From assembly GCA_028824715.1 (NCBI GenBank), contig JAPPCV010000104.1:1-34680 (forward strand): 34,680 bases of DNA, given 5' to 3'. Shown in pieces: positions 1-33,164 of this stretch. Positions within the stretch are counted from its first letter, which is position 1, and every line of letters begins with the position of its first letter. The position numbers and the translations under genes are program-made. The notes beneath the pieces are model-generated. The model saw only the letters and a program-made list of their open reading frames with translations, was not told the origin of the DNA and searched no databases. This stretch comes from Boseongicola sp. GTDB taxonomy: Bacteria > Pseudomonadota > Alphaproteobacteria > Rhodobacterales > Rhodobacteraceae.

Positions 1-233
1 GGAACGAGAAGATCAGCTACAAGGTTCGGGAGCATTCGGTTGGCAAGGTGCCGGTCATCCTGGCGGTCGGTCACCGCGAAGTGGCCGACGGGACCGTGAG
101 CGTCAGGAAGCTTGGCAGCAAGGCGACCGAGACCCGTTCGCTCGCCGAGGCTGTCCGGGAGCTTGCATCGGAAGCTCTCCCGCCAGATCTTCGGCGGGAT
201 GACGAGATGCGTTCCAGGGACGGCACGGCATAG
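1..233 (+). CDS. thrS: Threonine--tRNA ligase, C-terminal fragment (5' end outside window)
   Basis: The frame is open from the first base (reading phase begins at base 3) to a TAG at 231-233. The visible ~76 residues match the end of the anticodon-binding domain of class II Thr[11 protein letters not shown], then K-V-P-V-I-L-A-V-G, then a T-V-S-V-R-K-L-G strand. These are the last beta-alpha-beta elements that read the Thr anticodon. The tail after the final helix is slightly extended and rich in charged residues. The catalytic core and TGS/editing domains lie to the left of the window. The next gene starts 149 bases downstream after a short T-run at 269-273, so thrS probably ends its own transcription unit. 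Confidence rests on the EHS-x-x-KVP signature; the call is limited by the short fragment. Confidence 0.9.
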
Positions 234-272
234 ACGTCTCCGATGGCTGACGGCCGGCGATATTTCAGTTTT

Positions 273-286
273 TGACAACACTGTCA
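273..286. promoter_or_regulatory. Palindrome TGACA-N4-TGTCA in the upstream region of the bufferin operon
   Basis: A perfect 5-bp inverted repeat with a 4-base spacer lies about 100 bases ahead of the precursor gene. Its left arm overlaps a TTGACA hexamer (272-277) that could serve as a -35 element. No good -10 hexamer is seen at 17-18 bases, so the promoter itself is only tentative. The overlap of a dyad with a -35 is what an operator would look like. No specific regulator can be named. The rest of 234-381 shows nothing else beyond the ribosome binding site GAGGA at 370-374. Confidence 0.3.
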
Positions 287-381
287 GCACACGCAGCCGT
301 GAGTGGAAGTTCGTTCCAATTCCCGTCTTGAATGCACAAGTCGATCCAACGACGAAAATTCAACTGAACGAGGACACGAAA

Positions 382-687
382 ATGTCGAAAACGACCAAGA
401 CCTTGGCGGCTGCGGGCGCAGTTGCAACCGCATTGGCTGCGTCACTGGCTGTACCCGCGCAAGCCCAGACGAAGGAGAAATGCTACGGCGTTTCGCTTGC
501 CGGCGAGAACGACTGTGCAGCCGGTCCCGGCACCACGTGCTCCGGCACCTCCACGGTCGACTACCAGGGCAATGCCTGGACACTTGTCGACACGGGCACC
601 TGTGCCGAGATCGAGTTGCCTGCAATGGCCGACGGCACGGCACGCATGGGCTCGCTCGAGCCGCTCGATCGCGACCTGCCGAGCTAA
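382..687 (+). CDS. bufA: DUF2282 bufferin-type RiPP precursor (BufA)
   Basis: A 101-residue secreted peptide precursor. ATG 382 follows GAGGA (370-374) at 7 bases. Residues 1-28 form a Sec signal peptide: K-rich start, Ala/Leu core, and VPAQA before the likely cut after A28. The mature part holds four cysteines, C34, C45, C53 and C74, in the DUF2282 pattern: K-C-Y-G-V, then [13 protein letters not shown], a D-Y-Q-G-N-A-W strand and G-T-C. A 27-residue acidic tail follows C74. In characterised bufferins, cysteines of this core are converted by the MNIO enzyme to thiooxazole-type heterocycles and the exported product binds copper in the periplasm; that role is inferred here from family and operon. 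It is the first gene of an operon with bufB, bufC and a doxX gene. Longer upstream start codons exist in frame but would bury the signal peptide. Confidence 0.9.
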
Positions 688-703
688 GTCTCTGAAGACT
701 GAC

Positions 704-730
704 GGCGTCTCCCGCTTTGCCGGGGACGCC
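704..730 (+). promoter_or_regulatory. Intercistronic hairpin between bufA and bufB
   Basis: Arms 704-712 and 722-730 pair over 9 bp (one G-T wobble) around a 9-base loop. The hairpin starts 16 bases after the bufA stop and ends 20 bases before the bufB start. No T-run follows, so a full terminator is unlikely. The position suits a 3' stabiliser of the precursor mRNA or a partial attenuator, either of which would give more precursor than enzyme. That role is inference from position. Confidence 0.55.
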
Positions 731-750
731 TCACCTTCCGGATTCCGTCA

Positions 751-1611
751 ATGCTGGATGCCACCGCCCACGAATTTGCCCGCCTGCCCGATGCGCCGGG
801 GGTCGGCTACAAGCCGCAGCACTTCAGCGAGATCGCGGACGATGCCGGGCCGGTTGCGTGGCTTGAGATTCACGCCGAAAACTACATGGGCGACGGCGGT
901 CGGCCCATCGCCCAGCTCAGGCACCTCGCCGAGCGCTTCGCGTTCTCGGTACATGGCGTCGGTCTCTCAATCGGTGGCGAGGGTCCGCTGGATTCCGAGC
1001 ACCTTGCTCGGCTCAAGCACCTCGTCGACTGGCTTGATCCGGCGAGCTTCTCCGAGCATCTGGCATGGTCGACCCACGACTCCGCGTTTCTCAACGATCT
1101 GCTGCCCCTGCCCTACACCGAGGCCAGCCTCGCCCGCGTGGCGGAGCATGTCGACGAAGTCCAGGAAGTCGTAGGACGACGCATGCTGCTGGAAAATCCC
1201 TCGTCCTATCTCGCGTTCGAAGAATCCACGCTGACCGAGACCGACTTCCTGCGCGAGGTCGCCAAGCGAACGGGTTGCGGGCTCCTGCTCGACGTGAACA
1301 ACGTCTTTGTCAGCGCAACGAATCTCGGCACCGATCCGGTTTCGTATATCAACGCGTTCCCCGTCGAACTTGTCGGAGAAATCCACCTCGGCGGACATGA
1401 CGACGATGAAGACGACCATGGTGCGCCCCTGCTGATCGACAACCATGGCAGCGAGGTCGCGGACCCGGTCTGGTCGCTGTTCGAATACACGATCAGGAAG
1501 TCGGGTCCCAAGCCAAGTCTCATCGAATGGGACAACGATGTCCCCGAATGGCCGGTTCTCAAGGCCGAGGCCAACCGTGCGGCCAAAGTCCTGGAAGCCG
1601 CGACCGCATGA
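751..1611 (+). CDS. bufB: DUF692 multinuclear non-heme iron oxidase (MNIO), BufB
   Basis: A 286-residue TIM-barrel enzyme of the MNIO family (relatives MbnB, TglH, ChrH), predicted to oxidise cysteines of the BufA core using two or three iron ions and O2. Nearly every family signature is visible in order: GVGYKPQH (17-24), E39 then H41-A-E-N-Y (41-45), [11 protein letters not shown] (66-76), EHLAWS (102-107), L-L-E148-N-P-S-S-Y, LLLDVNN (178-184), EIHLGGH (210-216), ID230-N-H232-G and IEWD (258-261). The conserved His, Glu, Asp and Asn of these motifs supply the iron ligands in crystallised relatives. Length is normal for the family. ATG 751 has a weak ribosome site, but homology begins within 16 residues of it. 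The TGA stop overlaps the bufC start as ATGA, indicating translational coupling. Acts in the cytosol before export of the precursor. Confidence 0.94.
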
Positions 1612-2357
1612 CGGTCGACCAGACCATGTTCCGGGAAGCGCTTCTGGATCCGGAGGCCGCACGCCCGGATGGCCTGAGCGACGGCAAGGGCCGACCGGCC
1701 GGGCGCCGATTCGACGTGTATCGCAACAACGTCTCCGTCTCGTTGACCGAGGCGCTGGAAGTGGGCTTTCCGGTCATCCGCAAACTGGTCGGGCAAGAAA
1801 ATTTCAGGTTGCTTGCCTCCGCGTATCTGCGCCGACATCCGCCGCATTCGCCGTTGATGATGCATTTCGGGGCCGACATGCCCTCGTTTCTGGCCAATTT
1901 CGAACCCACGAGGCAAACCGGCTACCTGCCGGACGTTGCGCGGCTCGAACTTGCCATCCGGGAAAGCTACCACGCGGCCGATGCGGACCCGCTCAGCCCT
2001 GCGGAACTCGAGGCGCTGCCTCCGGAAGCGTTGGTCGGCTCCCGCGTGCAACTTGCCACCTCCGTGCGCCTGGTGCGATCACCCTGGCCGATCCTCTCCA
2101 TCTGGCGTTTCAATGCCGAGGAGGCCGCGAAAAGTCCGGAAATGGCCGCCGAAGACGTGCTGGTCGCCCGGCCGGACCTGGATCCGGTTCCCGAGCTGCT
2201 GCCTCCAGGCGGGGCGGAATTCATCAATGCGCTCTTGACGGGTGCGACATTCGGGGATGCAATGGACATGGCATCAGAAGCATCCCGGAACTTTGACTTG
2301 CCGGCGGTGCTCACCGTCTTGGTCAAAATGAAGACCATGATCGAAATCGGAGGATAG
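1608..2357 (+). CDS. bufC: DUF2063 MNIO partner protein (BufC)
   Basis: A 249-residue protein starting at the ATG that overlaps the bufB stop. The N-terminal half shows the DUF2063 signature: [11 protein letters not shown] (32-42), then a F-P-V-I-R-K-L-V-G helix, an [11 protein letters not shown] segment and [10 protein letters not shown] with Y-H-A-A-D after it. In MbnC/TglI-type partners this region pairs with the MNIO and presents the peptide; the C-terminal half resembles the RRE-like winged fold that grips the leader. No catalytic residues are expected. An alternative start 27 codons upstream would overlap bufB and carries low-complexity residues unlike the family. The downstream SD of the doxX gene (AGGA 2351-2354) sits inside the last codons, so the two are tightly linked. 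Confidence 0.92.
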
Positions 2358-2362
2358 CTTTC

Positions 2363-2914
2363 ATGTCCAGCAACATACTGCTGCTGCCGGACCGGCTGCT
2401 TGCGCTGGTCGAACCGGCGTCCACGCCGGTCCTGACCACGCTTGCGCGCTTCATTTTTGCTGCGGTCCTGCTTGTCTACTACCTCAACTCTGCGCTGACC
2501 AAGATCCCCGAAGGCCTGATCAATCTGGTATCGCCGAGTTTCAACGCCTTTGCGCAGATCTTCCCCAAGGAGGCCGAAGCCGTGCTCTATGACATCGGGC
2601 AGGCAACGATCTTCCAGAAACTTGTGATCCTCGCCGGCACCTGGGCGGAATTCGTGCTTCCGTGCCTCGTTGTCATCGGCTTGTTCACCCGCGCGGCCGC
2701 GCTTGGCATGATCGGCTTCGTGACGGTTCAGAGCCTCACGGACATTTTCGGACATGGCGGCGAGACCGGTGCATGGTTCGACCGGCTTTCGGACGCGGTG
2801 ATCCTGGACCAGCGCGCGTTCTGGGTGTTTCTGCTTCTTTACCTGGTCTTCCGAGGCGGCGGACCGATTTCAGTCGACCGATTGCTCTACGCGGCCTTTG
2901 ATCGGAACAGGTAG
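2363..2914 (+). CDS. DoxX-family membrane protein closing the bufferin operon (BufD-like)
   Basis: A 183-residue integral membrane protein of the DoxX/DoxD type. Four hydrophobic segments are visible at about 25-45, 82-102, 105-125 and 143-162. The N-terminal helix region carries an A-R-F-I-F-A-A-V-L-L stretch and a conserved-looking S-A-L-T-K-I-P motif; loops face an A-E-F-V-L-P helix typical of the family. DoxX proteins are frequent last genes of DUF2282-DUF692-DUF2063 operons. Their job there is not settled; redox support or handling of the copper peptide at the inner membrane has been considered. The start ATG 2363 lies 8 bases after AGGA and 5 bases after the bufC stop. The next gene is convergent, so this ends the operon. 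Confidence 0.87.
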   Translation: MSSNILLLPDRLLALVEPASTPVLTTLARFIFAAVLLVYYLNSALTKIPEGLINLVSPSFNAFAQIFPKEAEAVLYDIGQATIFQKLVILAGTWAEFVLPCLVVIGLFTRAAALGMIGFVTVQSLTDIFGHGGETGAWFDRLSDAVILDQRAFWVFLLLYLVFRGGGPISVDRLLYAAFDRNR

Positions 2915-2948
2915 GGCGGAACCGGGCATTCAAGCCGGCGAGCGGGAC

Positions 2949-3281
2949 CTATTCGCCGAGATGCCGCCTCCTCACCGCGGCGTCCCAGCCAAGGGTGACC
3001 ATTTCGCCGTCAACGATTACGGGACGCTTCATGAGTGACGGATACCTGGCGATCAGATCTGCCGTCGCTCCCTGACGCTCGGAGTCGGTCAGATTGCGCC
3101 AAGTGGTCGAGCGGCGATTGACGAGAGCGTCTCCAAACGCCTGAAGCAAGCGTTCGATCGTGCCGGGATCCAACCGGCTCTCGCGGACATCCACGAATGT
3201 GACGTCCATGCCAGCACCTTTCAGGTCCTGACTTGCCGTTCGGCAAGTACTGCAGTTCTTCAGCCCGTATAGCGCAAGCAT
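2949..3281 (-). CDS. ArsC/Spx-family thioredoxin-fold protein (YffB-like)
   Basis: A 110-residue protein with an N-terminal thioredoxin-like strand and a C10-S-T-C13 pair in the context L-Y-G-L-K-N-C. The middle has the R-R-S-T-T-W-R segment and the end the L-M-K-R-P-V-I-V strand shared by ArsC, Spx and YffB. Real arsenate reductases carry a downstream Arg in a defined R-x-P loop that is matched only in part, and YffB-like proteins act as GSH-dependent thiol reductases of unknown target. A specific arsenate role is therefore not claimed. ATG 3281 follows GAGGC on the minus strand. It converges on the bufferin operon across a 34-base gap, with no arsR-type regulator nearby. Confidence 0.85.
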   Translation of the reverse strand: MLALYGLKNCSTCRTASQDLKGAGMDVTFVDVRESRLDPGTIERLLQAFGDALVNRRSTTWRNLTDSERQGATADLIARYPSLMKRPVIVDGEMVTLGWDAAVRRRHLGE

Positions 3282-3457
3282 TCTGCCTCATGCCCCTGTC
3301 ATGGAAGGTTTCGCTTGTGTTTTTTGGAAATTGCCTCAGACTCCGGCCAGCATCGGACGTCAAGTCGTCTGCCTCACCTTGGCATTCGTCCAGACTTTTT
3401 TTGCTGTTCGAAGACAGGCCCGGATTTTCCGGGCAAAAGGACCAAAGGAAAACTACC

Positions 3458-3664
3458 ATGCCTACTGGCACCGTGAAGTGGTTCAATACCCACAAAGGTT
3501 ACGGGTTCATCGCACCCGACGAAGGCGGAAAGGACGTGTTCGTTCACGTCTCTGCCGTGCAAAAGGCCGGATTGACCGGATTGAGCGACAACCAGAAAGT
3601 CGAATACGAACTGGCCGAAGGCCGTGACGGCCGCCAGATGGCGGACGATCTGAAGGCCATCTGA
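3458..3664 (+). CDS. CspA-family cold-shock RNA-binding protein
   Basis: A 68-residue single cold-shock domain. RNP1 is seen as K-G-Y-G-F-I and RNP2 as V-F-V-H-V, preceded by the G-T-V-K-W-F-N start of the OB fold. Residues 50-68 complete the barrel with a V-E-Y-E-L strand. The protein binds single-stranded RNA and melts secondary structure in the cytosol. ATG 3458 follows AAGGA (3445-3449) at 8 bases; longer in-frame starts would add unrelated residues. The long leader (about 175 bases from the divergent ArsC-like gene) contains a T-tract at 3396-3402 and fits the long structured 5' leaders common for csp genes, but no specific element was recognised. Confidence 0.95.
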   Translation: MPTGTVKWFNTHKGYGFIAPDEGGKDVFVHVSAVQKAGLTGLSDNQKVEYELAEGRDGRQMADDLKAI

Positions 3665-3691
3665 TAAATCAGCACTGAAACTGTCGGTGTT

Positions 3692-3736
3692 CATGAACCC
3701 GCCGTTGCGCAAGCATCTGGCGGATTCATGTTTGTT
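3692..3736 (+). terminator. Probable intrinsic terminator after the cold-shock gene
   Basis: Arms 3692-3703 (CATGAACCCGCC) and 3719-3730 (GGCGGATTCATG) pair over 12 positions with one mismatch. The 15-base loop contains the smaller palindrome TTGCGCAA. TTTGTT follows directly. It starts 28 bases after the csp stop. Confidence 0.6.
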
Positions 3737-3983
3737 CTGAGTGGCTTTTGCGCGTCGAACGTGCACGAAGGATTTGCAGCGCACAAGTTTGCTTGCAAAT
3801 TCTCCGAAACTTCGGTCCCGGCCAATGCCTGAGGACGCCGGGGTGCAAACGCGACTGCCAAGGACACTCAGCGCGACCTTGCGCACGACCGCACCTGCGG
3901 ACAGTCGATGCCAGACTCAAGGCGACAGTGACGGCGGCAGGTCCCGCACGAGCGTGTCGCGGGCCGCAGCCATCCCAGGACAA
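3737..3983. other. Gap between cold-shock terminator and thyX, no gene seen
   Basis: No frame here shows a recognisable protein or good start site. A GC-rich dyad, CCCGC with GCGGG, lies at about 3943-3963 just past the thyX stop and could help end minus-strand transcription, but it lacks a T-run. Confidence 0.4.
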
Positions 3984-4895
3984 TCAGCGAATCAGGCCTA
4001 CGAATTCCCTCCACTCGCCCTTTGACATGCCGGATTCCTCCTGCGTCACGTCCTCGCCCGCCAGCATCCTGCGAACGCAGTCAAGCGCCGCTGCCGAAAG
4101 CGTCGCGCCGCCCAGCCGATAGTCCTTGAACGCCCTGTAGGCGAACGGAACCCAGTCGGCGACCAGCTTGCAGACTTCCTTTGCGTACACGCGAATTTCG
4201 TATTGCGCGTGGGCATCCGCCCTCAATCGCAGAAAATGGAAAAGGTTGTGCAAGTCCGTTTTCCAGTACCACTGGGTATAGACGTTGGCGGGAAGGTTCA
4301 TGCGCGCAAGCTCCCTGGCCAGCCCCTTCTGGCCATCCTGGGAAATCATTTGCTCATAGTGGTCGTAGCAGAGCATGGAATCGGTCTTCAGGAATCCCAA
4401 GACGCGGGCCGCCTCCTCTCCCGCCAGCGCCTCGCCACGGCCTTGGCTGTTGACGGTCGATTGCGCGGCAAGGTCGTCCGGGCCCGGAATGTAGAATTCG
4501 CGATCCAGAATCGAATAGCGCGCCGAATACTCGTTCACGTTGGCGGTTCGGTGACGTATCCACTGGCGCGCAACGAACACGGGCAGCTTCACATGCAGCT
4601 TGATCTCGCACATCTCGAACGGGGTCGAATGCGAATGGCGCATCAGGTAGCGGATCAGGCCTTCATCATTGGAAACCGATTTCGTTCCCTTTCCGTAGCT
4701 CACGCGAGCCGCCTGGGTGATCGCAGCGTCGTCACCCATGTAGTCGATGACCCGGACAAACCCATGATCCAGGACCGGGTAGATCGTGTAGAGGTGAACC
4801 TCCATCCCTGGTGCCGTCACGCGCCGTGTCGACCGCTTCGCCGCTCGCATCTCGGAAATTTCCGTTTCGGGGTCCTGGATCGCGTCCTCTGACAT
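3984..4895 (-). CDS. thyX: Flavin-dependent thymidylate synthase
   Basis: ThyX makes dTMP from dUMP with methylenetetrahydrofolate, FAD and NADPH. The hallmark motif [14 protein letters not shown] is complete, and H-S-T-P-F-E precedes it as in the family. The [17 protein letters not shown] segment near the N-terminus and the [15 protein letters not shown] helix bind FAD and dUMP. Length is 303 residues from ATG 4895, normal for alphaproteobacterial ThyX. A TTG at 4922 in the same frame would add nine residues, but the ATG is preceded by GAGAG and fits better. No thyA is in the window, and the dut gene at 11.2-11.6 kb supplies the dUMP substrate pathway. Divergent from gloA across 240 bases. 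Confidence 0.96.
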
Positions 4896-5135
4896 GCTCT
4901 CAATTCGCTTCAATCGACTCAACCGGCGGCCACAGCATAGTGGGGTCTCGCCCCATCACAACACAATATGAAGGGCCGCAAGCGTTTTTTTCTGTTTCCA
5001 GCCATAAAGCGCATTGATGGCGCGGAGGATTCGTTCAGGACACGTCGCCAATGCACAAGGGCACCTGCTTCGACGGTTCGGTGTTGAGCGCGCCCAGCAA
5101 TGCGATAGGTTGCCCAGGAAAAAGGAGTGTCTCAC

Positions 5136-5564
5136 ATGGGAATCGAATACCTGCACACGATGGTGCGCGTGAAGGATCTTGAGAAGTCCAAGGCCTTCTA
5201 CGAGCTTCTGGGTCTCGAGGAAACGCGACGGATCGAGAACGAAAACGGACGGTTCACGTTGGTGTTCCTGTCGCCCCCGGGGCAGAAAGACGCGGATGTC
5301 GAACTCACCTACAACTGGGATGGTGATGACGGGCTCCCCTCGGACAGCAGGCATTTCGGACATCTCGCCTACCGGGTCGATGACATCTATGAGACATGCC
5401 AGCACCTGATGGACAACGGCGTCACGATCAACCGTCCTCCGCGTGACGGTCACATGGCCTTTGTCCGCTCGCCCGACAATGTCTCGGTCGAGTTGCTTCA
5501 GCGAGGCGAGCACCTGCCACCCGCCGAGCCGTGGGCGAGCATGGAGAATGTCGGACACTGGTGA
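5136..5564 (+). CDS. gloA: Lactoylglutathione lyase (glyoxalase I)
   Basis: A 142-residue enzyme that isomerises the methylglyoxal-glutathione hemithioacetal to S-lactoylglutathione. The four metal ligands of the Ni-type glyoxalase fold are placed as expected: H7, E56, H76 and E119, in two paired beta-alpha-beta-beta-beta modules. The short bacterial form (no long insert) suggests Ni/Co rather than Zn use, by family rule. AAAGGAG at 5121-5127 is spaced 8 bases from ATG 5136; a GTG at 5127 overlaps that site and is rejected. The glutathione it needs would come from gshB in the same window at 13.1-14.1 kb. Its 3' end faces sdhE. Confidence 0.95.
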   Translation: MGIEYLHTMVRVKDLEKSKAFYELLGLEETRRIENENGRFTLVFLSPPGQKDADVELTYNWDGDDGLPSDSRHFGHLAYRVDDIYETCQHLMDNGVTINRPPRDGHMAFVRSPDNVSVELLQRGEHLPPAEPWASMENVGHW

Positions 5565-5787
5565 CCGGGCTCTCCGGCTTCGCACTGGCAGGGAACTCTC
5601 TGAGACAGTCGAGTGCGTCGAGGAGCGCCTCGGTCCCGTTGCCGGGATTGAATGTGCACATGCCCTGCCAATCCGCCATGCGACCGGATCCATTGCTTGT
5701 GGAGTCGACTCGACTTGTCCGCAAATGCCGCCGAACGTGATGTCGTCCGGTTGATTGCAGGCCGAATGGCGAAACTTGCTTGTGGAG

Positions 5788-6051
5788 CTAGGCGGAAGCT
5801 GTCCCGTGTGCGTTGATGCGTGCAATCAAGCAGATGAAGCGATCGGGAGGCTCCGCCTGCCCACTGAACCACGCGTACAGGTCCTGATCGTTCTCGCAAA
5901 GCAGGTCTTCGTACAGATCGAGTTCGGATGCGTCGAGCGCCTGTCCCGCTTCATCCCAGAACCGGCCCAAGACCAGGTCCACTTCCCTGGTGCCTCGTCG
6001 CCAGGAACGAATGCCCAGCCGGCGAAGCCGAATGTCACGATCCTCGGTCAT
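5788..6051 (-). CDS. sdhE: FAD assembly factor SdhE (succinate dehydrogenase assembly)
   Basis: An 87-residue SdhE/DUF339 protein, which promotes covalent FAD attachment to SdhA. The R-G-x-x-E motif is present as R19-G-T-R-E23 within a R-S-W-R-R-G-T-R-E segment, followed by D-L-V-L-G-R-F, a helical E-L-D-L-Y-E-D-L-L run, and the E-N-D-Q-D-L-Y-A-W signature before a Gly-Gln turn. ATG 6051 is preceded by GGAGAGG; a TTG 12 codons upstream is less likely. Its start lies inside the end of the XRE regulator gene (17-base overlap), so the two are translated from one message. No sdh structural genes are in the window. Confidence 0.92.
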   Translation of the reverse strand: MTEDRDIRLRRLGIRSWRRGTREVDLVLGRFWDEAGQALDASELDLYEDLLCENDQDLYAWFSGQAEPPDRFICLIARINAHGTASA

Positions 6052-22609: not shown

Positions 22610-24181
22610 ATGACCGCGATTCGGCTGATATCCGGTGCCGTGACAGTGGGGGCCTGGACGTTCCTGTCGCGCATACTCGGCTTTGTCCGTGACATCCTGA
22701 TCGCGGCATGGCTTGGGAGCGGCCCGGTGGCGGAAGCATTCCTCGTGGCCTTCGCACTGCCCAACATGTTCCGACGGTTCTTCGCGGAAGGCGCCTTCAA
22801 CATGGCGTTCGTCCCCATGTTCGCAAAGAAGCTGGAGGTCGGCGAGGATGCACACGGCTTTGCGCGAGACGCCCTGTCGGGACTGACGCTGATCCTGATC
22901 GCCATCGCGATTCTCGGCACGGTTTTCATGCCGTGGCTCGTTCTTGCAATGGCCAGCGGCTTTGCGAACGACATGCGCTTCGACGCAGCCGTCACCCTTG
23001 GGCGGATCGTGTTTGTCTATGTCGTGTTCATCTCCCTCGCCGCACTCTTTTCCGGCGTCCTGAACGCGGGCGGAAAGTTCGCCGCTGCAGCAGCCGCCCC
23101 GGTGCTTCTGAACATCATTCTGGTCGGCGTGCTGATCCTTGCCGAGCTTGGCCACGGCCGATCCGTGATCGGGGACGCGGACAGCGCTCGCCACGGCACG
23201 CTTCTGGCGTTCGGCGTGGTTCTGGCCGGCGTCGCGCAGCTCGCCCTCGTCTGGATTGCGGCGCGGGCGGCCGGTTTCGGACTCCGGCCTGGCTGGCCAC
23301 GCTGGACCCCGGAACTCAAGCGACTTGCCGTGGTTGCCGCGCCCGCAATGCTGGCTGGCGGCGTCGTGCAGGTCAATCTCCTCGTGGGTCGGCAGGTGGC
23401 AAGCTACTTCGACGGTGCCATCGTTTGGCTGTCCTTCGCGGACCGGCTCTACCAGCTGCCCCTTGGCGTTGTCGGCATCGCGATCGGGATCGTGCTCCTG
23501 CCGGACCTGTCGCGTCGCCTGGCGGCCCGCGACACGGATGGCGGCCAGTTCGCGTTCTCGAGGGCGGTCGAGATGTCCCTGGCGCTGGCCATTCCCGCCG
23601 CTGCCGCGCTAGCGGTGATTCCGGCGGCGATCGTGCGCACGCTCTTCGAGCACGGGGCGTTCGGTCCGGCCGACACGGCTGCCACGGCGCTGGCCACGGC
23701 GGTGTACGGCCTTGGCCTTCCGGCGTTCGTGCTGCAAAAGGCCTTGCAGCCGCTCTATTTTGCACGGCAGGACACGGGCCGCCCGTTCCGCTTTGCCGCC
23801 GCTGCAATGCTGGTCAACGCGATCCTGGCGATCGGGCTTGCGCCGTTCATCGGGTACATCGCCGCAGCCATCGGCACGACGCTTGCAGCGTGGTTCATGC
23901 TGGCATTGCTTTACCTTGGATCAAAGAAAATGGGCCGGGCCGCCGAGCTGGACACGCAGGTCCGGAAGCGCGTGCCGCGCATGCTCATGGCAACGGCAGT
24001 GATGGCTGCCGGGCTCTGGCTCCTGGATCGCTTGCTGCACCCCGTCGCGATGACGGGCGAGCTTGCGGCGATCGCCAGCCTCGCCCTGCTCTGCATCCTC
24101 GGGCTCTTGATCTATGGCGCAGCGGGCATTGCCCTCGGGGCATTTTCGATTGCCGAATTCAGGAAAGCGGTGCAGCGGTAG
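22610..24181 (+). CDS. murJ: Lipid II flippase MurJ
   Basis: A 523-residue MOP-superfamily membrane protein with about 14 hydrophobic helices, moving lipid II across the inner membrane. Family motifs include [10 protein letters not shown] near the N-terminus, the [20 protein letters not shown] region with the key Arg, A-F-V-P and [18 protein letters not shown] 22610 (after GGTGA) begins the first helix; an upstream start in the same frame would add 34 residues overlapping the glnD end. It is cotranscribed with glnD at 43 bases, an order kept in many Rhodobacterales. Convergent with the rhomboid-like gene. Confidence 0.96.
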
Positions 24182-24192
24182 ACGGGAATCGG

Positions 24193-24879
24193 TCATCGCC
24201 GCCGCATCCGGTCCAGCAGCCCGCGAAAGGCGCCGCGTGCAAGCGCCGGAGCAAGCACGAATCCCAACGCGAAGCCGGCCGCGTCCGCCACCCAGTCATT
24301 CGACCCGCCGAAGATGATCGCGAAGCCAAGCTGGATGCCAAGCAGGAAACCGATCAGCGTGAAGGCGCGATACTGGTTCTGCCCGGCCGCGCCATACCCG
24401 ACCCAGAGCAGAAAGGTGTAGGCGCCGATCAGGCCGTAGACCGACGGGAAGCCGCCGATCAGCGGAAACTCGTCACTTGTCAGACCGGCAAAGATCAGGG
24501 CGCCAAAGGCGCCGCAGCAGAAGAACAGGACAAGGACGGCGAGGTTGCCCAAGACCTCGCCCACGAGCTTCCCCATGGCAAGAAGGAACACGATGACGAA
24601 CGTCGCATGGGCGAATCCCTGATGGACGAAGGGATAGGTAACGAACCGACGGAGATGCTCGGGCGACCAGTTGCCGGTTTCGATGATCCAGGCCAGCAGC
24701 GGGCCATAGAAGGCAAAGTCGCGAATCGCTTCCGTGCGCCAGCCAATGGCGGCTGGTCCGCCGACGTAGCCCCGGGCTCCAAACGCCAGAACCACCTCGA
24801 TCACGAAAATCAGCGCCGCCAAGGACGCGACCGCCGGCGGCAGGGCATTGAAGGTCGGTTGCAAACCATCGTCTCGCAT
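24193..24879 (-). CDS. Rhomboid-like membrane protein, predicted catalytically dead
   Basis: A 228-residue protein with six or seven hydrophobic segments in the rhomboid layout. The second-helix H-Q-G-F-A-H-A-T-F region and the G[12 protein letters not shown] core are recognisable. At the catalytic serine site (GxSG, just before V-Y) the sequence reads G143-F144-P145-S146, and at the catalytic His (x-H-x-x-G) it reads A-D199-A-A-G. Both residues of the Ser-His dyad therefore appear lost. S146 is displaced by two positions. ATG 24879 is preceded by AAAGG. It lies between murJ and trpS, facing both oppositely; function would be binding rather than cleaving membrane proteins, as in iRhom/derlin relatives, by analogy only. 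Confidence 0.8.
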
Positions 24880-24954
24880 CGCTTGCCTTTCTTGACGGAG
24901 AAACAAGGTCTCGGTAAGGCCCGCGAGCAGGAAAATCCAGAGGATCGCAGCCAC

Positions 24955-25980
24955 ATGCCGGCCCAAGCATTCACCCCCCGCGTGTTTTCGGGAATCCAGC
25001 CCTCCGGCGGATTGACGCTCGGCAACTATCTCGGGGCGCTCAAGCGCTTCGTCGACATTCAGGATGACGGCGAGCTGGAGTGCATCTACTGCCTTGTCGA
25101 CCTGCACGCGATCACGACGTGGCAGAAGCCCGACGAACTGGTCCGTAACACGCGCGAGGCCGCAGCGACGTTCATGGCGTGCGGCATAGATCCTCGGCGG
25201 TCGATCCTCTTCAACCAGAGCCAGGTGCCGGAACACGCGCAACTGGCATGGATCTTCAATTGCGTCGCGCGCATGGGATGGATGGGCCGGATGACCCAGT
25301 GGAAGGACAAGGCGGGGAAGAACGCGGAGAACGCCTCGCTCGGCCTCTTCGCCTACCCTGCGCTCATGGCGTCGGACATTCTTGCCTATCACGCAACCCA
25401 CGTGCCCGTGGGCGAAGACCAGAAACAGCATCTGGAGCTCACGCGCGACATCGCCGCGAAGTTCAACCACGACTACGAGGTGGATTTCTTTCCGATTGTC
25501 GAACCGATGATCGAAGGTCCGGCCACGCGGGTGATGAGCCTGCGTGACGGCACGAAGAAGATGTCAAAGAGCGATGCCTCGGACATGAGCCGGATCAACC
25601 TTTCGGACGATGCCGACACGATCGCGCTCAAGTTCCGGAAGGCAAGAACCGACCCGGAGCCCTTGCCAGGGACCTACGGCGAACTGGAGGAACGGCCAGA
25701 AGGCCGCAACCTGATTGACATCTATGCCGGCCTGACGGGGCACACTCCGGATGCGGTGATGACGGAGGTTGCCGGCCAGGGATGGGGCAAGTTCAAGCCG
25801 CACCTCGCCGAGGTGGCCGTTGAGACCCTGGCGCCGATCACGAGCGAGATGAACCGCCTTCTGGGTGATCTTCCCGAAATCGACCGCATCCTGGGCGAAG
25901 GTGCGACCCGTGCTCGCGAGGTCGCAGCGCCAATTCTTGCGAGGGCCTACGAAATCATCGGCATGATCTCGTCCCGATAG
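24955..25980 (+). CDS. trpS: Tryptophan--tRNA ligase
   Basis: A 341-residue class I synthetase. The first signature P16-S-G-G-L-T-L-G-N-Y replaces HIGH as in all TrpRS, and K202-M-S-K-S206 is intact. The intermediate [14 protein letters not shown] and [15 protein letters not shown] motifs bind tryptophan and ATP. ATG 24955 follows GAGGA (24940-24944). Divergent from the rhomboid-like gene across 75 bases. The reading frame stays open far upstream through murJ, but that is a property of GC-rich DNA and not part of the protein. Confidence 0.97.
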
Positions 25981-31919: not shown

Positions 31920-32017
31920 CTACACGGCCGAAACATTGGCGAGCGGTTCGGTGCCTTCGCTCAGGATTGCAAGGTAAGGACGATATCCAAAAACGCGGCC
32001 GCGGCGCCGACCGGTGA
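31703..32017 (+). CDS. Doubtful small basic Trp-rich ORF
   Basis: A 104-residue frame beginning M-G-N-V-T-R-W-R-E-K-P-K-R, with a helical-looking A-E-T-W-A-R-E-K-V-R-D-M-G-R-L-F segment. Its first ~60 residues have protein-like character and a possible GGTGG site ahead. The last third is antisense to the Fic 3' end, where it is probably meaningless. No family is recognised. It may be a remnant or chance. Confidence 0.2.
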   Translation: MGNVTRWREKPKRTRWDLPRAIPVAETWAREKVRDMGRLFVNWQSKLQSCFAALQADCRKAFLGLSATGPFRPTRPKHWRAVRCLRSGLQGKDDIQKRGRGADR

Positions 32018-33107
32018 CTTCGTCGACGATGCCAAGGCGTTCCAGATCAGCGAGCGCGGCATTGACAGTTGGGGCCGAGCGGCCAGTGCGTTCCGCCAAC
32101 TGGCTGGCAGTCAAATACGGTTTCTGCTGGAAATGGTCGTGAATGCGCAATGCCGAACCGGCTCGATCGCTTTCTCGTGTGATGAGCTCCCGATCCGCAT
32201 TGAAGAGCTCAACTATACGCGTTCCGGCTTCAAAGGCTTGGTTGGCTGTTTCGGCAACACCGGCCAAGAAAAACTCGAGCCACGCCTCCCAGGCACCGTT
32301 CTCCCTGACTTCTTGAAGCAGGCGATAGTAGTCGGCGCGGTTGGCCTTCAAGAACAGGCTCAGGTAGAGAAGCGGTTCGCGCAATACGCCCTCCGCGCAG
32401 AGGAACAGCGTCATGATCAGTCGGCCTATCCGACCGTTTCCGTCCAGGAATGGGTGGATTGTCTCGAATTGAACGTGGATGAGCCCGGCCTTGATCAAGG
32501 CCGGCAGCCGTGACACTTCTTCGTGCACAAATCGCTCGAGGTCTCCAAGACATGCGTCCATTTCCGTTACAGGAGGTGGTACGAAAAGGGCGTTTCCTGG
32601 CCTGGTCCCTCCGATCCAGTTCTGCGAGCGTCGGAACTGGCCAGGGTTCTTTGTCTCGCCGCGACCACTTTGCAGAAGCCTGGCATGCATGTCCCTGATG
32701 AGTCCGAGTGACAGAGGCAAGGCTTCCAATCGCTCCAGCCCGTACATCATCGCATCGACATAGTTTGAAACCTCGCGAATGTCATCGATGGGCTCTCCGG
32801 CCTGCGCCTCGGATTCGAAACGCAGCAGATCCGAAAGAGTCGATTGCGTCCCTTCGATCTGGGACGACAGAACCGCCTCCTTGCGGACGTACATATAGAG
32901 AAAGAGCTCCTGATGCGGCAGGAGCGTGATGAACCCGTCAAGGCGGCCCAAGGCTCGCTCTGCCAAGCCAAGCGGCTCCATTAGTGATAGAAGATCAATG
33001 GGAGGCGTCGGCGGCAACGGTGGCGGCACAAAGGCACGTACCGTTTCCCCTGCTACAGCCGTTTCGACAAATCGTCCCAGTCTTTGGCGTTCGAAGTCCG
33101 TGTTCAT
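31920..33107 (-). CDS. Fic-domain protein with N-terminal inhibitory helix and C-terminal winged helix
   Basis: A 395-residue protein. A Fic_N region (F-V-P-P-P-L-P-P) leads to the inhibitory motif S81-S-Q-I-E85-G86, then the Fic domain with H218-P-F-L-D-G-N-G-R-I-G-R229, the complete AMP-transfer motif. Residues about 325-365 are a winged helix (L-T-A-S-Q-L-A-E-R-T-G-R-S-A-P-T-V-N). Fic proteins move AMP from ATP to a Tyr, Ser or Thr of a target; E85 should clamp the ATP pocket until released. The own-chain motif makes this a class II Fic, not a toxin needing a separate antitoxin. ATG 33107 is used; ATG 33131 lies within the palindrome described separately. The wHTH and palindrome suggest self-regulation. 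Confidence 0.9.
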   Translation of the reverse strand: MNTDFERQRLGRFVETAVAGETVRAFVPPPLPPTPPIDLLSLMEPLGLAERALGRLDGFITLLPHQELFLYMYVRKEAVLSSQIEGTQSTLSDLLRFESEAQAGEPIDDIREVSNYVDAMMYGLERLEALPLSLGLIRDMHARLLQSGRGETKNPGQFRRSQNWIGGTRPGNALFVPPPVTEMDACLGDLERFVHEEVSRLPALIKAGLIHVQFETIHPFLDGNGRIGRLIMTLFLCAEGVLREPLLYLSLFLKANRADYYRLLQEVRENGAWEAWLEFFLAGVAETANQAFEAGTRIVELFNADRELITRESDRAGSALRIHDHFQQKPYLTASQLAERTGRSAPTVNAALADLERLGIVDEVTGRRRGRVFGYRPYLAILSEGTEPLANVSAV

Positions 33108-33130
33108 GCGCGAACCATGCAGCGGGCACA

Positions 33131-33164
33131 TTATTTAAGCAATACCCGCTTGGCTTAAATAAGC
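33131..33164. promoter_or_regulatory. Palindromic operator at the 5' end of the Fic gene
   Basis: TTATTTAAGC (33131-33140) and GCTTAAATAA (33153-33162) are perfect inverted arms with a 12-base spacer. The right copy extends to GCTTAAATAAGC (33153-33164), itself nearly palindromic. The AT-rich dyad is 24 bases upstream of ATG 33107 and covers the alternative ATG 33131, fitting a promoter-embedded operator. The Fic protein's own winged helix is a candidate binder. Confidence 0.65.

Follow-up and report, generated by a model that had tools for sequence, protein, structure and literature searches.

The bufferin operon bufA-bufB-bufC-bufD (positions 382 to 2914, plus strand) of a Boseongicola sp. 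contig (JAPPCV010000104.1, assembly GCA_028824715.1) carries, upstream of its first gene, a conserved pair of short palindromes that, among the Rhodobacteraceae genomes searched, excludes NrsF and the sigma-F promoter. Throughout, "the window" means the whole 34,680-nucleotide stretch analysed, which is contig C167 of a 5.24 Mb assembly estimated to be 98% complete. Taken as a whole, we think it probable that this operon is governed by a metal-responsive activator acting at the paired site, with a hairpin behind bufA that favours the precursor peptide over its enzymes. The operon itself is ordinary, being one more member of a published family, and a first-pass annotation of the window had already proposed its bufferin identity, which our results support. 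That annotation mentioned neither the conserved operator nor the bufA-bufB hairpin. As far as we searched, the control region (the paired site, its exclusion with sigma-F and the hairpin) is unreported, and it makes this bufferin operon a variant worth a bench test.

The putative operator occupies positions 273-302 on the plus strand and consists of box 1 (TGACA-ACAC-TGTCA, 273-286), a 3-nt spacer and box 2 (CACG-CAGC-CGTGA, 290-302). In alignment, this block is unchanged in six of seven same-genus loci, the window included, and a single change is seen in L032. We derived the consensus TGACG-N4-CGTGA-N2-CACG-N4-CGTGA, in which the spacer is 3 nt in the window's genus, from 104 regions upstream of bufA; these came from 108 loci, four of which (L051, L052, L072, L119) gave no bufA start, and they include three second copies (L055/L028, L092/L030, L124/L035) and five loci of other families. 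With at most four mismatches over 20 positions, the operator was present in 73 of these regions compared with none of 520 shuffled sequences; one shuffle came within five mismatches. When the second copies and other families were left out, 70 of 96 regions contained it. The RTGG directly after box 2 is also conserved among aligned relatives. A weaker conserved TCAC(A/G) starts 10 nt ahead of box 1 and is perhaps a further, fifth half-site. Beyond these two elements, conservation is low up to a TANNNT motif.

Searching 149 whole genomes (one per genus, partly overlapping those behind the upstream-region set) with at most two mismatches gave 36 matches in 35 genomes, compared with two for a reversed control pattern. 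Twenty-nine of the 36 sit 63-108 bp upstream of bufA and one lies between bufA and bufB, while the remaining six are elsewhere, all within stop-to-stop open frames of at least 240 codons. With two mismatches allowed, matches are thus almost confined to the bufferin operon, yet only 29 of the 105 genomes with bufB have one there. In the window's own genome, the genus-specific variant of the pattern returned one exact site and one three-mismatch match elsewhere. The operator stays with bufA despite a Hint-domain gene after thrS in L037 (four mismatches) and L083 (five), and culturable marine bacteria such as Ruegeria and Phaeobacter have it at their bufferin operons. A near-single-target site at bufferin operons of culturable bacteria offers a direct bait for the regulator.

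We read a −10-like hexamer, TTGAAT (328-333, plus strand), from the sequence 25 nt past the operator and take it as part of the likely promoter; a sigma-70 scan of window positions 1-4200 called no consensus promoter. Among 70 relatives with a 2-nt spacer and at most five mismatches, a set that excludes the window's own genus, TANNNT lies 24 or 25 nt past the operator in 51. This distance places the boxes just upstream of the −35 position, a usual place for an activator, and thus speaks for one.

The published sigma-F promoter of Caulobacter is GTAACC-N16-CGAA (PMC3511200). NrsF was found in eight of 77 genomes drawn from our first list of 105; dropping six genomes of other families, of which G028 and G034 have NrsF, left 71 Rhodobacteraceae, with NrsF in six (L036, L040, L045, L061, L074, L102) and absent from 65. 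The sigma-F promoter, allowing one mismatch between −130 and −60 of bufA, was present in exactly these six of the 71. Conversely, the operator within five mismatches was found in none of the six carriers and in 54 of the 65 non-carriers (Fisher p 9e-5). The switch can occupy the same chromosomal place, as in L040, where the order is thrS, nrsF (minus strand), sigF (minus strand), bufA. By eye, each of the six carriers also has one TCAC-N5-CGTGA box, with CGCGA for CGTGA in L036, whose distance ahead of the sigma-F −35 element is constant, as if an activator site and sigma-F cooperate. A quick maturase tree, in which many branches are weak, requires at least four changes between the two control states. 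With somewhat less than even confidence, we propose that in many Rhodobacteraceae a metal-sensing activator with essentially one target takes the role of sigma-F/NrsF at the same chromosomal site, and that the two have been exchanged repeatedly. The activator may be the older of the two, as suggested by the single box that the six sigma-type loci keep ahead of their sigma-F promoter.

The second conserved element lies in the 63-nt gap between bufA and bufB (688-750), where a hairpin at 704-730 (plus strand) has a 9-bp stem, GGCGTCTCC/GGGGACGCC, and no T run behind it. Allowing G-U pairs, stems of at least 9 bp occur in this gap in 94 of 95 Rhodobacteraceae loci, compared with 63 of 950 dinucleotide shuffles and, as a second control, seven of 95 stretches of equal length taken 5′ of bufA. 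The 95 loci include the three second copies and omit four with an intergenic stretch above 200 nt (L037, L064, L081, L083) along with the five of other families, whose stems measure 3-7 bp. Stem sequences vary between genera, and an Rfam search of window positions 1-6000 returned nothing at gathering score. We rejected a terminator in the window, where the T run is missing and none was called; some relatives (L034, L056, L060) do have a T run behind the hairpin. The hairpin may instead be an mRNA element that shields the bufA part of the transcript, yielding many precursors per enzyme; if so, it would explain how one transcript gives much peptide and little enzyme. Its closest known counterpart is the hairpin of the Rhodobacter puf operon, which likewise stands between early and later genes and has been tied to segmental mRNA stability (PMC6238624). 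The puf genes are unrelated to those of the bufferin operon, however.

Several observations weigh against this picture. The consensus was built from the same upstream regions in which it scored 73 of 104, and the two-mismatch scan finds it upstream of bufA in only the minority of bufB-bearing genomes given above, missing even the window's own because its spacer is one base longer. The genomes compared for NrsF are related, so that the Fisher counts are not independent events. When six mismatches are allowed, the operator is scored as present in one sigma-type locus (L040), compared with 62 of the 65 non-carriers. Eleven of the 65 differ from the operator at six or more positions, seven of them (L056, L060, L066, L078, L090, L114, L126) showing degenerate copies by eye. 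Among 14 loci from other genera of the family, only seven have the operator within five mismatches, three are of the sigma type and four (L038, L043, L044, L046) lack both NrsF and a clear operator. No regulator was identified by a search that covered the thrS-bufA interval and left genes downstream of bufD unsearched: the frames in this interval of ten long-gap loci included none that looked like a regulator by eye, and profile searches of eight of these frames gave four Hint domains, the rest falling below cut-offs, with no DNA-binding family. For the hairpin, the folding z-score of the bufA-bufB stretch, computed for the window alone, is a modest −1.9.

We predict a copper-responsive activator dedicated to the bufferin operon, and two other kinds of regulator have to be weighed against it. 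The paired site might be bound by a repressor, for example of the TetR family, that is released by metal. TetR-family operators are often 5-4-5 palindromes, and both the two short palindromes with N4 centres and the near-single target per genome would suit such a protein. The boxes, however, end 24-25 nt before the −10 hexamer and thus lie upstream of the −35 element or just touch it, which is more usual for activators, and the thrS-bufA interval showed no regulator gene in any locus examined; on balance, we regard a repressor as unlikely but worth keeping in view. To a similar degree, we doubt that the protein bound there is a CusR/CopR-type two-component response regulator sensing periplasmic copper. 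Box 1 of the window, TGACA-N4-TGTCA, does fit TGACAAnnTTGTCAT, the palindrome for Escherichia coli CusR at pcoE (PMC11195947), and a site just upstream of −35 suits an activator of the OmpR family. The family-wide consensus TGACG-N4-CGTGA differs from the E. coli site, however, and a regulator that also controlled copper efflux genes would not be expected to have nearly a single target per genome. The canonical CusR/CopR/SilR family (TIGR01387, cut-off 279.2 bits) was not reached in any of 33 genomes searched, the window's own included, where the best score was 180.2 bits compared with 256.2 bits overall. All 33 genomes hold lower-scoring regulators of the OmpR type, which makes the OmpR-type family in the wide sense a possible source of the binder.

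On sequence grounds, bufA-bufD is confirmed as an intact Buf1-type bufferin operon downstream of thrS, with all four open reading frames present and uninterrupted. The first-pass annotation had named the order DUF2282-MNIO-DUF2063-DoxX and expected DUF2282, DUF692 and DUF2063 profiles to find the first three genes; the matching models PF10048, PF05114 and PF09836 all scored above cut-off, and only the DoxX assignment fell slightly short in the window. The precursor gene bufA (382-687, plus strand) encodes 101 amino acids and belongs to DUF2282 (PF10048, 82.3 bits, cut-off 22.4, E 2.3e-23), with what looks by inspection like a typical Sec-type signal peptide ending near AQA. The four cysteines that had been noted in it are Cys 34, 45, 53 and 74, and they are kept in 104 of 104 aligned BufA sequences, three of which are second copies from the same genomes. 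The MNIO maturase encoded by bufB (751-1611, plus strand; 286 amino acids) scores 345.8 bits in PF05114 (cut-off 25) and exceeds the curated cut-off of the NCBIfam model MNIO_BufB (NF050167, 374.3 bits, cut-off 310), while the HvfB model gives 240.3 bits on the window, below its cut-off of 360. Aligned to the solved MNIO 3bww (E 4.6e-44), BufB retains the HG, S(E/D)H, EN, DVNN, IH..GHD, D.HG and E.D motifs, in agreement with the earlier statement that the visible motifs are intact; the iron-binding residues are presumably among them. The DUF2063 partner protein of the maturase is encoded by bufC (1608-2357, plus strand; PF09836, 86.6 bits, cut-off 27.2), which scores 45.2 bits against NF050145, under the cut-off of 142, and had no match when the PDB was searched by sequence. 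The DoxX-like membrane protein encoded by bufD (2363-2914, plus strand) scores 22.9 bits against PF07681, where the cut-off is 23.6; same-genus L030 likewise scores 22.9 bits, and seven of eight BufD proteins of relatives pass. A DoxX protein is a common, though not an obligatory, component of Buf1 operons. The four genes had been called translationally coupled, which holds for bufB-bufC (a 4-nt overlap, ATGA at 1608) and bufC-bufD (a 5-nt gap) and fails for bufA-bufB with its hairpin-bearing gap.

Genome profile searches found a single MNIO and a single DUF2282 protein in the window's own genome. A search there for the second bufferin family, BufA2, gave no match, and its controls were without match too, so that absence is not established. 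BufB is 99% identical to the maturase of the metagenome-assembled genome Boseongicola sp. SB0665_bin_10 and 92% identical to that of the metagenome-assembled genome Silicimonas sp. p16x43bins.5, and the next named matches are Rhodobacteraceae. Among relatives, two bufA-like genes stand in tandem ahead of a single bufB in L037, L064 and L083, a bufB match with one in-frame TAA lies at G123:C45:4545-5327, and G149 has three MNIO matches (contigs C62, C57 and C29), one of them under the BufB cut-off. Maturase relatives are also present in 355 plasmid records; the closest (75.7%) lie on Tritonibacter mobilis replicons above 1 Mb.

In published Buf1 bufferins, the two central cysteines are converted to thiooxazoles and the outer two are joined by a disulphide; the peptides leave through Sec and chelate copper (PMC12452194; PMC13097082). 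By analogy, the same copper-binding product is expected here because the cysteines are kept throughout the aligned BufA proteins and BufB retains the motifs of 3bww. The precursor would be synthesised in the cytoplasm, where BufB, with BufC presenting the substrate, would turn Cys 45 and Cys 53 into thiooxazoles; after Sec export, a Cys 34-Cys 74 disulphide would form and the peptide would bind excess periplasmic copper, with BufD as a presumed accessory membrane protein. The cysteine modification anticipated at first is thereby narrowed, as in the published model only the two central cysteines are modified and the first and last form the disulphide (PMC12452194, Fig. 3 legend). The activator, bound to the two palindromes at 273-302 immediately ahead of a weak promoter, would then sense a metal, probably copper, in place of the sigma-F/NrsF switch. 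That the peptide buffers another metal or a stress instead seems to us improbable: relatives in Legionella and Cupriavidus respond to gold besides copper (PMC5413113) and Caulobacter sigma-F responds to chromium and cadmium (PMC3511200), but the bufferins characterised to date chelate copper (PMC12452194).

The closest known systems include the Caulobacter Buf1 operon CC3254-CC3257, which shares the order precursor, MNIO, DUF2063 partner and DoxX-like protein with the operon described here (PMC3511200), as well as the Buf1 family, the four conserved cysteines and, by inspection, a Sec-type signal. Unlike Caulobacter, the window's genome has no NrsF, and a paired palindrome takes the place of the GTAACC-N16-CGAA promoter. 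It is very improbable that the operon answers to a Caulobacter-like extracytoplasmic function sigma switch with its sigma factor encoded elsewhere: Buf1 operons with sigma/NrsF are known (PMC12452194; PMC3511200) and relative L040 has such a pair between thrS and bufA, but a genome search whose Caulobacter control matched found no NrsF here (the search did not extend to a lone sigma factor lacking NrsF), and no GTAACC-N16-CGAA lies within one mismatch at −130 to −60 of bufA. The gig operons of Cupriavidus metallidurans and Legionella pneumophila are likewise bufferin operons, and theirs answer gold and copper (PMC12452194; PMC5413113); a unique regulator has been suggested for Legionella gig, together with an influence of RpoS (PMC5413113). 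Oxazolin and fontiphorin (captophorins with EGKCG repeats) share an MNIO, a DUF2063 partner and cysteine thiooxazoles (PMC13097082), but their precursors are repeat-containing and not DUF2282 proteins; for fontiphorin, a mass loss of 4 Da per modified cysteine is reported (PMC13097082). A literature search, judged mostly by titles and without the original bufferin paper among them, turned up none that dealt with how bufferin operons are controlled in Rhodobacteraceae, and the available part of the text of PMC12452194 makes no mention of thrS, a hairpin, a regulator, a promoter, Rhodobacter or an operator.

The contig begins within thrS, whose 3′ end (3-233, plus strand) encodes the anticodon-binding domain of threonyl-tRNA synthetase (PF03129, 38.3 bits; TIGR00418 profile positions 508-564 of 565). 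The position directly behind thrS without a sigma/anti-sigma pair had been set against the better known Caulobacter arrangement; the description is correct, as the genome search for NrsF bears out, but the setting is common to many Rhodobacteraceae. A same-strand thrS lies at most 1.3 kb upstream in six of six same-genus loci and in 67 of 77 named loci, which are best matches and hence near relatives (75 hold 1.3 kb of upstream sequence). The same distance holds for five of 14 loci of other genera within the family (eight of 14 within 4 kb) and for none of seven loci of other families. Hint-domain genes stand between thrS and the bufferin operon in L037, L083, L090 and L091.

Downstream, and outside the operon, an ArsC/Spx-like gene (2949-3281, minus strand; PF03960, 44.8 bits) is a conserved convergent neighbour, present in six of six same-genus, 67 of 77 named, eight of 14 other-genera and none of seven other-family loci. 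A cold-shock protein gene follows (3455-3664, plus strand) and is found behind the bufferin locus in 66 of the 77 named loci. Farther along the window, positions 31920-33131 (minus strand) encode a Fic/DOC protein with a Fic N-terminal domain and a C-terminal winged helix. A 1090-codon frame at 22708-25980 (plus strand) has as its sole Pfam match a class I tRNA synthetase over residues 757-1041, and its long N-terminal part is probably non-coding.

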